From assembly GCF_001038455.1 (NCBI RefSeq), contig NZ_LDUY01000007.1, forward strand, positions 1 to 64,000: a stretch of 64,000 nucleotides of DNA, in the 5' to 3' direction. Shown here one piece after another: positions 54,879 through 59,602 of the stretch; within the stretch, counting starts at the first letter, position 1, and each line of letters starts with the position of its first letter. This DNA is from Fructobacillus sp. EFB-N1. Lineage in GTDB: Bacteria > Bacillota > Bacilli > Lactobacillales > Lactobacillaceae. The position numbers and the translations under genes are program-made. The notes beneath the pieces are model-generated. The model made no database searches, had not been told where the DNA came from, and worked only from the letters and a program-made list of their open reading frames with translations.

Positions 54879-56957
54879 ATGAAAAAAAATAACGGTGGCT
54901 TCTTTAGAAGCTCCTTTCTATATGTCATCATCTTCTTGGCGGTCATTGCTGGAATTTACTCACTAGTTGGTGGGTCAAATGGCGGAACAAAGACGTTATC
55001 ATCGTCTGACTTCGTTAAGCAATTGTCCGACAAGGAGATTGACTCTTTCACAATCCAGCCCGGTAACGACGTTTACACGGTGACTGGAACTTATAAAAAT
55101 AGCCAAAAGTCATCATCGACTGGTCAAGGCTTGAATAGCCTCTTGGCAAATCAGACTACGACAACGAAGTTTTCAACTTCTGTCTTGGAAAATGATTCAT
55201 CATTGAAGCAGATTACTGATTTGGCCAAGAAGACCAACACGGATATGACGACAAAGCCAGCACCATCTTCTGGCTTCTGGTTGAATTTGATTATTTCCAT
55301 TGTGCCATTGCTCTTAATTGTGGGTGTCTTCTACTTGATGATGTCCCAATCAAGCGGCAAGGGCGGTCAAGGCGGCATGATGGGTAACTTTGGTAAGTCA
55401 AAGGCAAAGCCTTCTGATCCGAAGGATAACAAGATTCGCTTTGAAAACGTTGCTGGTTCTGACGAAGAAAAGGAAGAACTGGTTGAAGTTGTTGAATTCT
55501 TGAAGTCGCCAAAGAAGTTCGTAGATATGGGCGCCCGTATTCCAAAGGGGGTTTTGCTTGAAGGCCCTCCCGGAACTGGTAAAACATTGCTAGCAAAGGC
55601 TGTTGCCGGTGAAGCTTCCGTACCATTCTTCTCAATGTCTGGTTCAGACTTCGTTGAAATGTTTGTCGGTGTTGGTGCTTCACGTGTTCGTGACTTGTTT
55701 GAGGAAGCCAAGAAGGCTGCCCCTGCCATTATCTTTATCGATGAAATCGATGCCGTTGGTCGTCGCCGTGGTTCTGGCGTTGGCGGTGGTAACGATGAAC
55801 GTGAGCAGACGTTGAACCAAATCTTGATTGAAATGGATGGATTTGAGAACTCTGAAGGTGTTATTATTCTGGCATCAACCAACCGTTCTGATGTTTTGGA
55901 TCCGGCCTTGCTTCGTTCAGGTCGTTTTGACCGAAAGATTTTGGTTGGCGCTCCTGACGTTAAGGGTCGTGAAGCAATTTTGAAGGTGCACGCTAAGAAC
56001 AAGCCATTGGCACCGGCCGTGGACTTGAAGGCGATTGCCCACCAAACACCTGGTTACGTTGGGGCTGATTTGGAAAACTTGTTGAACGAAGCTGCCTTGC
56101 TGGCTGCTCGTCGCGACAAGAAGTTAATCGACTCCGCTGACTTGGATGAAGCCGAAGATCGGATTTTCCAAGGACCTGCTAAGGCCAACCGGGCAATGTC
56201 CGAGTTGGAACGGAAGACAACCGCCTTCCACGAAGCCGGTCACGCCTTGGTTGGTTTGGTTCGTTCAAACGCATCCGTCGTTCGTAAGGTTACGATTGTG
56301 CCGCGTGGACGCATTGGTGGTTACGCTTTGATGACACCAAAGACAGATCGTTATAACATTCGTTATTCAGAAGCTAAGGAACAATTGGCTGGTTTGATGG
56401 GTGGACGTGCTGCCGAATTGGCAACATTTAACGAAGCTTCATCCGGTGCTGCGAACGATTTCCAGCAGGCAACGAATTTGGCCCGCCAAATGGTGACGGC
56501 CTATGGAATGTCTGAAAAGTTGGGTATGGTTCAACTTGAAGGAAATGCTTCTGTTGGCTATAGCGAACAGGGTGGCGCACAGTCATATTCAGACGAAACG
56601 GCTGCATTGATTGATGAAGAAGTTCGTCGTTTGACTAAGGAAGCCTTTGAGGAAGCAACAAAGATTTTGACGGAACACAAGGATAAGTTGGCAGCGATTG
56701 CTAATGCCTTGTTGGATGTTGAATCATTGGACGAAAAGCAAATTAAGGACATCTACGAAACTGGTCACTTCACCAAGAAGGGTGAAGAAGACGAAGATGA
56801 TGCCAAGTCATTTGATGAAACTAAGGCTTCTTTGGATCACAAGGAAGACGAAGTGGAAGATGAAGAGCAAAAGGGTGATGAAAACCCAACGAAGCCTCTT
56901 GATCAAAATGATAACCAAGCTGAATCGGCGGACGATACGACTGATTCAGATAAATAA
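54879..56957 (+). CDS. ftsH: ATP-dependent zinc metalloprotease FtsH
   Basis: The 692-residue protein has an N-terminal membrane helix (about 10-28), an extracytoplasmic domain and a second helix near 130-150. The AAA+ domain follows (Walker [14 protein letters not shown] near 229, Walker [12 protein letters not shown] near 286, [16 protein letters not shown] near 347), then the metalloprotease HEAGH near 450. The C-terminal ~70 residues are very acidic. It degrades membrane and regulatory proteins. GAGGA precedes the ATG and a TATAAT lies at about 54838. Confidence 0.97.
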
Positions 56958-57029: not shown

Positions 57030-57980
57030 ATGTCAGATCAATTAATTAAGGTCATTACAAAAGATGAGGCCTTCCGTGCCTTTGCCATTGACGGGACAAA
57101 GTTAGTCCAAGAAGCAGCAAGCGCTCACCATGCCTCACGGATTGCAACGGTCGTCCTCGGACGGGCATTGCTCGCAACAGAAATCTTGGCCCAGGCAACT
57201 TTGAAGGGCGAAGAGCGTCTTGGTGTGAAGATTGACGGGAAGGGACCGATTGGCAACGTTGTAACGGAAGCGGACGCTCATGGGGCGGTTCGTGGCTACG
57301 TAACCAATCCTCAATTGGAACCAATCGTTAACGATGACAATCAATTGAACGTGGCTGGCGCTGTTGGCAACCATGGTTCTTTCCAAGTGACGAAATTGGC
57401 ACCTTATTCGAAGCCGTACCTCGGTCAATCGATTATTGTTTCTGGTGAAATTGGTGATGATTTCACCTACTATTTGACACAATCAGAACAGATTCCATCC
57501 GTGATTGGTGTCGGTGTAACGATGAACCCGGATGACACGGTTGCGTCTGCTGGTGGTTTTTTGGTTCAGGCATTGCCAGGAGCGACAGATGCTCAGTTGG
57601 ATCAATTGGACGAGCACTTAAAGCAGATGACACCACTTTCTGAACTCTTGTCTGAAAAGAAAGGTCCACTGGCTGTTTTGGATGATCTTTTGGGCAAGGA
57701 TAACTATACGTCTCTGGCTTCTGTAGCTGTTGGCATCGCCGCTGAACCACCCAAGGAAGCTTATGGTGAGATGTTAGCAACGCTGCCATCCCATGAAGTC
57801 CAGGCGATGATTGATGAGGATGGCGGGGCTGAAGTGGTCGGACGTTTCTCAGGCAAGAAGCATTACTTTGAAGCCAATGAGCTAGAAGGAATCTTAAGTA
57901 AGATTTTAAAGCGTGAGGCCGAAGCAGAAGAAAAAGATGATGAAAAATCAGCTGCTGATAACGAAAACAAGCAGGACTAA
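57030..57980 (+). CDS. hslO: Hsp33-family chaperone lacking all redox cysteines
   Basis: The 316-residue protein has the complete Hsp33 core: ASAHHASRIATVVLGRALLA near 30-49, GNVVTEADAHGAVRGYV near 75 and AGGFLVQALPGA near 174. In canonical Hsp33 the C-terminal switch carries CxCS and CxxC, which bind zinc and form disulfides on oxidation. Here those places read about IAAE (236-239) and GRFS (271-274), and the protein contains no cysteine. The surrounding DEDGGAEVVGRFSGKKHYFEANEL still aligns. The chaperone could be always active or switched in another way. A charged tail ends the protein. It lies between ftsH and lysS as usual. Confidence 0.9.
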   Translation: MSDQLIKVITKDEAFRAFAIDGTKLVQEAASAHHASRIATVVLGRALLATEILAQATLKGEERLGVKIDGKGPIGNVVTEADAHGAVRGYVTNPQLEPIVNDDNQLNVAGAVGNHGSFQVTKLAPYSKPYLGQSIIVSGEIGDDFTYYLTQSEQIPSVIGVGVTMNPDDTVASAGGFLVQALPGATDAQLDQLDEHLKQMTPLSELLSEKKGPLAVLDDLLGKDNYTSLASVAVGIAAEPPKEAYGEMLATLPSHEVQAMIDEDGGAEVVGRFSGKKHYFEANELEGILSKILKREAEAEEKDDEKSAADNENKQD

Positions 57981-58015
57981 CGCTTCTTAAAAAAACGGAA
58001 AAAAGACCATGAGAT

Positions 58016-58044
58016 GGGCAAACCAGGCGGTTCGCCCTTTTGTC
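58016..58044 (+). terminator. hslO terminator (weak)
   Basis: GGGCAAACC and GGTTCGCCC pair with one mismatch and are followed by TTTTGTCTT. Confidence 0.5.
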
Positions 58045-58082
58045 TTGGCCGTTGTTTTGTTATACTGGAACAAGATAAATGA

Positions 58083-58094
58083 GCGAATATTCGC
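58083..58094. promoter_or_regulatory. Palindrome in the lysS leader
   Basis: GCGAATATTCGC is a 12-bp perfect palindrome between a TATACT box (near 58060) and the ribosome site of lysS. Its role is unknown. Confidence 0.3.
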
Positions 58095-58114
58095 CGACAG
58101 GAAGGTAGATAGAC

Positions 58115-59602
58115 ATGGCTGAAGAAAAAGCCTTAAATGATCAAATGGTCGCCCGCCGTCAGAAGATGAAGGCGCTGGTTGATGATTTGAGCATTGATCC
58201 ATTTGGACATCGTTTTGACCGAGACGCTTTGGCAGCGGACCTCCATGAACAATACGATGAGAAGACACAAGAAGAGTTAGAAGCAAACCCTGTAGAGGTC
58301 ATCATTGCTGGCCGAATGGTCGCTAAACGTGGTGCCGGAAAAGTTATCTTTGCTGACGTCCGTGACCGCTCAGGTGAAATTCAAGTTTATGCTCGTCGTG
58401 ATGACTTGGGTGATAATTACCCAATCATTAAGCGTGCTGATTTGGGTGACTTCTTAGGAATTAAGGGTCAAGTGATGAAGACGGAGGCTGGTGAATTAAC
58501 CATCTTGGTTAAGCACTTGACTCACTTGTCAAAGGCCTTGCGTCCAATGCCCGACAAGTTCCACGGTATTTCAGATGTTGAAACGCGTTACCGTAAGCGC
58601 TATCTTGATTTGATTGCCAACAAGGAATCTTTGACTCGGTTTCAAAACCGTTCAAAGATCGTTTCAGCTATCCGGGCCTTTATGGATGGTCACGATTTCT
58701 TAGAAGTGGAAACACCAATCTTACAAACGCAAGCCGGTGGTGCGGCTGCTAAGCCATTTATTACCCACCACAACGCCTTGAACATCGATATGTACATGCG
58801 AATCGCAACTGAATTGTATTTGAAGCGTTTGGTTGTTGGGGGTATGGAACGGGTTTATGAAATCGGTCGAATTTTCCGAAATGAAGGAATGGATCCAAAG
58901 CATAATCCCGAATTTACAACCTTGGAATCATATGCTGCTTATTGGGATTTCACAGACGTAATGGACGAAACGGAAGGGATCTTCCGCGCTGCCGCTAAGG
59001 TTGTTCATCCTGATTTGCAAGTAAATTACCAAGGCACTGACATTGATTTGTCAAAGCCATTTGCTCGTAAGCATATGGTTGACTTGATTAAGGAAAAGAC
59101 CGGTGTTGACTTCTGGCCAGAAATGACGGTTGAAGAAGCTCGCCAATTGGCGGATGAACACCACGTGAAGTACGAACGGTACTGGCAGGTTGGCCACATT
59201 ATCAACGAATTCTTTGACAACTTTGTTGAAGACACGTTGGAACAACCAACTTTCGTCTATGGTCACCCAGTGGAAGTTTCACCATTGGCTAAGAAGAATG
59301 CTGATGACCCACGCTTTACGGACCGATTTGAGTTGTACATCGTTGGTTCTGAATTTGCTAACGCCTTTACTGAATTGAACGATCCAATCGACCAACGAGC
59401 TCGTTTTGAAGCCCAAGCGGCCGAACGTGATAACGGTAATGACGAAGCTGAAGGTATCGATGAAGACTTCTTAGAGGCCTTGGAATACGGTATGCCACCT
59501 ACAGGTGGTTTGGGCATTGGAATTGATCGTTTGGTTATGCTCCTAACGGATGCCGCTTCTATTCGTGATGTTGTGTTGTTCCCAACAATGCGTCCAGAAT
59601 AA
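58115..59602 (+). CDS. lysS: Lysyl-tRNA synthetase, class II
   Basis: The 495-residue enzyme has an N-terminal OB-fold anticodon-binding domain and a class II catalytic core, with motif 2 [20 protein letters not shown] near 252-271 and motif 3 [13 protein letters not shown] near 468-480. It charges tRNA-Lys. GGAAGG precedes the ATG. The dus gene that often separates hslO and lysS is absent here. Confidence 0.97.

Follow-up and report, generated by a model that had tools for sequence, protein, structure and literature searches.

Loss of the four redox-switch cysteines from Hsp33, and of the DnaJ zinc finger, in Fructobacillus and related genera

Hsp33 is the textbook chaperone with a redox switch: in the classical protein, unfolding is triggered by disulphide formation and the release of zinc. 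The hslO gene of this Fructobacillus genome raises the question of how such a chaperone might be controlled when the CxC...CxxC zinc-binding cysteines of redox-regulated Hsp33 are absent. These cysteines have been called fully conserved, with fewer than 10 of 1579 Hsp33 homologues lacking the second one (PMC7423844), and Hsp33 has been described as having 'four absolutely conserved cysteine thiols' (PMC4735815). In the open-access literature, we found no prior report of a cysteine-less Hsp33 or a finger-less DnaJ in these genera.

We identified hslO by profile matches in the window, the whole 64,000-nucleotide stretch that was analysed (Table 1). The gene starts with ATG and encodes 316 residues, none of them cysteine. 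The Pfam HSP33 model (PF01430) matches the protein over its full length (251 bits against a cut-off of 21.4, E 1.4e-74; residues 3-280, model positions 1-272/273), and the HslO equivalog model NCBIfam PRK00114 scores 258.8 bits, above its cut-off of 244. The solved structures closest to it are the Hsp33 proteins of B. subtilis, T. maritima and E. coli. A genome search found one Hsp33 gene in the 1.64 Mb Fructobacillus genome, flanked by ftsH (54879-56957) and lysS (58115-59602); the nearest named genome to the window is that of Fructobacillus tropaeoli, at 98% protein identity. We conclude that the protein is a true HslO/Hsp33 orthologue. Use of the Hsp33 fold in some other role, for example one directed at EF-Tu or the ribosome, is very improbable: effects of classical Hsp33 on EF-Tu have been reported (PMC8614738), but the invariant core motifs, the ftsH-hslO-lysS order and the full family score are all kept. 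We note that other readable Lactobacillaceae loci carry, between hslO and lysS, a gene starting MEWKIGD..VVAPMAGVTN, which looks like a tRNA-dihydrouridine synthase gene (dus); no gene with this start occupies the interval (57980-58115 here) in any Leuconostocaceae locus read.

We located the four switch positions by ungapped alignment to Pediococcus acidilactici HslO, whose cysteines are C238, C240, C271 and C274. In the clade-wide alignment, no conserved His/Asp set replaces them at these positions. Because both the cysteines and such a set are missing there, the known zinc site is gone. The total of zero cysteines is itself unremarkable: cysteine makes up 0.17% of residues over the 59 ORFs of the window, most of which have none, so that about 0.5 would be expected in 316 residues by chance, and the neighbours FtsH, LysS and Hpt likewise have 0 in this genome. 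The notable point is the loss of four otherwise invariant positions. A sequence-only reading of this locus was right in identifying the protein as Hsp33 and in seeing that the switch is lost. It had placed the altered switch motifs at IAAE and GRFS, correct to within two residues, with the first motif shifted by two relative to the Pediococcus alignment; and its remark that the protein has no cysteine anywhere is accurate for all 316 residues but loses its significance in a cysteine-poor window.

Table 1. Positions of hslO, its parts and switch positions, and of the finger-less DnaJ
Feature	Position	Strand	Basis
hslO, cysteine-less Hsp33, 316 aa	57030..57980, stop included	+	Pfam/NCBIfam profile matches
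N-terminal client/linker-docking core, residues 1-178	57030..57563	+	alignment to 1vzy/1vq0, AF2; boundary by homology
Linker region, residues 179-230	57564..57719	+	boundary by homology
Former zinc/redox-switch domain, residues 231-288, without cysteines	57720..57893	+	alignment, conservation, AF2
Switch position 1, Cys to Ala238	57741..57743	+	alignment
Switch position 2, Cys to Pro240	57747..57749	+	alignment
Switch position 3, Cys to Gly271	57840..57842	+	alignment
Switch position 4, Cys to Ser274	57849..57851	+	alignment
Acidic C-terminal tail, residues 292-316	57903..57977	+	AF2 low confidence; length comparison
Finger-less DnaJ	G000:C10:42831-43289 (L182); loci L179-L198 except L195		

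Distribution of the cysteine loss

All four cysteines are absent in 31 genomes of six genera (13/13 of the genus Fructobacillus and 18 from five more) and in 35 named sequences from Fructobacillus, Convivina, Leuconostoc, Weissella, Oenococcus and related MAGs; the two sets share species and are overlapping samples. Every Hsp33 of the former Leuconostocaceae that is readable to its end lacks all four, and the Convivina protein has a single unrelated cysteine at residue 30. Replacements follow genus: A-P-G-S in Leuconostoc, Convivina and Fructobacillus, P-I/M/T-D-T in Weissella, and A/D-L-D/S-N/T in Oenococcus. The four cysteines are present in all other Lactobacillaceae genera and Bacilli that were read. 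The motif is kept in at least one copy in each of 14 Bacilli genomes, including the lowest-scoring of 200 sampled, and in 39/40 low- to middle-scoring genes from a phylum-wide Bacillota draw, the remaining one being a fragment. Nearly all Bacillota Hsp33 proteins examined outside the clade therefore keep the four cysteines. A maximum-likelihood tree built from core and linker only, with the switch domain excluded, separates the 35 cysteine-less sequences from the others by a single branch, supported at 100/98. These sequence comparisons show that the switch cysteines were lost in a single event, on the stem of the former Leuconostocaceae.

Frameshifts do occur among these genomes: hslO of Leuconostoc fallax KCTC 3537 (L099) is unreadable for this reason, and G018 (genus g7) has frameshifts in hslO, dnaJ and clpX. 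They look like assembly errors more than pseudogenes. Such errors are what would have to be assumed if a sequencing error, frameshift, misassembly or second copy concealed the cysteines, a reading to which we give practically no credence. Sequencing error and misassembly are ruled out by the agreement of the 13/13 genus genomes with independent assemblies of all the other clade genera, and no second copy bearing the cysteines exists, as hslO is single in this genome.

We also note that Hsp33 is absent from the Lactobacillaceae genomes G020, G058, G088 and G114 (genus g9) and G113 and G161 (g8), two of which are single-contig, and that one locus (L168, G343:C13) has an extra, C-terminally truncated Hsp33 copy without the switch domain alongside a full copy.

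State of the former switch domain

We considered whether the C-terminal domain, once without its cysteines, shows signs of decay. The cysteine-less proteins share a consensus of their own in this domain, vGLAAEPxKxaYaxmLaTLP..e.qaMIDEDgGAEivGkFsGKr..F. In Fructobacillus, Leuconostoc and Weissella the domain has a Nei-Gojobori w of 0.06-0.09, versus 0.047 in Pediococcus; these values are indicative only because few pairs are unsaturated. Amino-acid distances in the domain, compared over pairs that are not independent, are lower in cysteine-less than in cysteine-bearing proteins at core distances of 0.10-0.25 (0.231 versus 0.407) and 0.25-0.40 (0.358 versus 0.466); at the widest core distances the domain is slightly less conserved in the cysteine-less set (0.588 versus 0.528). 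By these measures purifying selection acts on the C-terminal domain, and the protein still makes use of it. A decaying switch domain is rejected as far as conservation, with purifying selection and a new consensus, shows.

We predicted the structure of HslO with AF2 and a 53-sequence alignment. The model has the predicted Hsp33 fold of core, linker and C-terminal domain, with linker helices at residues 187-198, 203-208 and 213-221. The C-terminal blocks reach pLDDT 91-97 and contain the same elements as a model of the cysteine-bearing Pediococcus protein. By TM-score, the closest Foldseek match is B. subtilis 1vzy_B (TM 0.86/0.94, rmsd 1.6 A, 285 columns). Since AF2 ignores metal and stability, this result speaks for fold compatibility and not for a stable metal-free state, and the high pLDDT is no proof of a stable apo domain because AF2 on an Hsp33 alignment tends toward the family fold. 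The last blocks fall to pLDDT 56-68 and correspond to an acidic, probably disordered tail, which is present in Fructobacillus and L1_55_11 but not in Leuconostoc, Weissella or Oenococcus.

The clade proteins thus resemble classical Hsp33 (E. coli 1i7f/1hw7, B. subtilis 1vzy, T. maritima 1vq0) in three-part architecture, core motifs and predicted fold. They differ in having all four zinc/redox cysteines replaced (by A, P, G and S here; by P, I, D and T in Weissella), in having no alternative metal-ligand set and, in Fructobacillus, in the added acidic tail.

The main rival to a cap controlled by unfolding is constitutive activity, which we regard as unlikely, though the least so of the alternatives: a zinc-less C-terminal domain would fail to clamp the linker, and the protein would bind unfolded clients at all times, like truncated E. 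coli Hsp33. This fits the finding that coordinated zinc lends stability to the switch domain and linker of the classical protein (PMC4735815), and the E. coli fragment 1i7f has been described as constitutively active. However, a closure domain that is no longer needed should drift or vanish, whereas the domain in these proteins equals or exceeds its cysteine-bearing counterpart in conservation at near to middle distances, has a new consensus of its own, and is predicted to fold and pack normally. The conservation could alternatively reflect client handling or dimerisation, rather than a cap.

The DnaJ zinc finger and cysteine use in the clade

To check whether zinc sites had been lost generally, we searched for the DnaJ zinc finger (PF00684). 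It was over the cut-off in 0/13 Fructobacillus genomes versus 13/14 control genomes. The clade DnaJ matches PF00226 and PF01556 but not PF00684, and it is missing the central CxxCxGxG zinc finger of type I DnaJ. Its C-terminal match spans about 150 residues in 19 Leuconostocaceae genomes (one frameshifted) versus the normal 218 in five others, and in alignment the finger is cleanly gone: a domain of about 65 residues has been lost, leaving 0 cysteines in every Leuconostocaceae genus tested. The gene is that of the dnaK-dnaJ operon, with DnaK ending just upstream in L182; its product is about 63% identical over shared columns to a finger-bearing, Pediococcus-like Lactobacillaceae DnaJ, and it is the sole DnaJ_C match in the Fructobacillus genome. 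Several copies apparently use a GTG or TTG start. Some long frames also retain weak CxxCxGxG matches; judging by their length, these are probably UvrA. With a J domain, a G/F region and C-terminal domains but no finger, the clade DnaJ is like type II J-proteins such as CbpA and an engineered finger-deleted DnaJ (PMC4428491); it is, however, the orthologue encoded in the dnaK-dnaJ operon and not a CbpA paralogue.

Of 151 Lactobacillaceae genomes, 124 have a finger match above the cut-off and 27 do not. These 27 are all the sampled members of seven genera, those with the switch-less Hsp33 (20 of the 27 Hsp33 proteins were read directly, one is frameshifted and six were not read). Class-wide, 197/200 Bacilli genomes have the finger, the exceptions being this genome and two draft assemblies in which Hsp33 scores like a cysteine-bearing one. 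Zinc fingers have not been purged wholesale: the ClpX finger is over the cut-off in 24/24, and a general zinc-finger purge is rejected on this ground. The DnaJ finger is kept in genomes without any Hsp33 (g9 and one of g8), so complete loss of Hsp33 does not entail loss of the finger. As one clade and one pair of events are involved, the co-loss of switch and finger is an association and not proof of coupling, and it may be a coincidence on a long stem branch.

The clade is also poor in cysteine. As estimated from the window and flanks, flanking proteins contain 0.225% cysteine in the clade versus 0.406% in cysteine-bearing Lactobacillaceae, and cysteines per protein average 0.06 versus 0.85 for FtsH and 0.08 versus 1.29 for Hpt. 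This roughly halved use is what would be expected if the loss were a passive by-product, in which lineage-wide depletion eroded the switch after redox control was no longer selected, with no functional re-tooling. We consider this improbable as a full account. Functional cysteine sites persist, namely the ClpX finger and the CxxC motifs of thymidine kinase-like and thioredoxin-like ORFs within the window; DnaJ lost an entire domain, beyond cysteines alone; and the Hsp33 switch domain is without sign of decay. The loss may have taken place against a background of cysteine depletion, yet such depletion accounts neither for the removal of a DnaJ domain nor for the survival of the ClpX finger or the conservation of the cap.

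A proposed unfolding-controlled Hsp33

On balance, and by a reading of sequence and model, we lean toward an Hsp33 that binds no metal, has a cap that opens under unfolding stress and passes its clients to the finger-less DnaJ system. The C-terminal domain would stay folded as a metal-free cap, pressing the linker onto the client-binding surface, with packing in place of zinc holding it over linker and client site. If the cap is kept as such a lid, the chaperone would be switched on by any stress that unfolds it together with the linker, such as heat, low pH, ethanol, another solvent or some other denaturing condition, and refolding would switch the chaperone off, with neither disulphide formation nor zinc release involved. 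Activation of this kind is plausible because linker unfolding alone suffices in E. coli Hsp33, where the M172S variant becomes active at about 40 C with no oxidant present (PMC4735815). By analogy with this engineered, linker-destabilised variant, oxidant-free activation by unfolding would be expected of the clade proteins; unlike them, M172S retains its cysteines and can be oxidised, whereas the clade lost the redox input by natural evolution.

Hsp33 clients are handed to DnaK/DnaJ (PMC7423844), and in the clade the receiving DnaK system would presumably be the one with the finger-less DnaJ. The clade thus seems to run the Hsp33-DnaK/DnaJ rescue pathway without a cysteine or zinc sensor. A broader proposal, which we hold more tentatively and with some doubt, is that the clade rebuilt the whole Hsp33 to DnaK/DnaJ relay to be independent of thiols and zinc, with Hsp33 turned into a pure unfolding sensor and the DnaJ finger dropped in the course of that rebuilding. 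The sequence-only reading had seen the loss as a feature of one protein, which the Lactobacillaceae alignments and tree now trace to the former Leuconostocaceae stem, and had offered permanent activity, control by unfolding alone or a new role without choosing among them; the evidence favours the second.

A clade that has Hsp33 with its regulatory domain but no switch cysteines is a natural experiment in which control by unfolding is separated from control by oxidation, and it tests the need for Hsp33 beyond oxidative stress. With the DnaJ finger lost as well, a possible functional link between that finger and the Hsp33 switch can be tested directly, and in food-grade bacteria. If the broader proposal is true, evolution has produced in this clade an equivalent of the Hsp33 variants engineered to be switched by heat.
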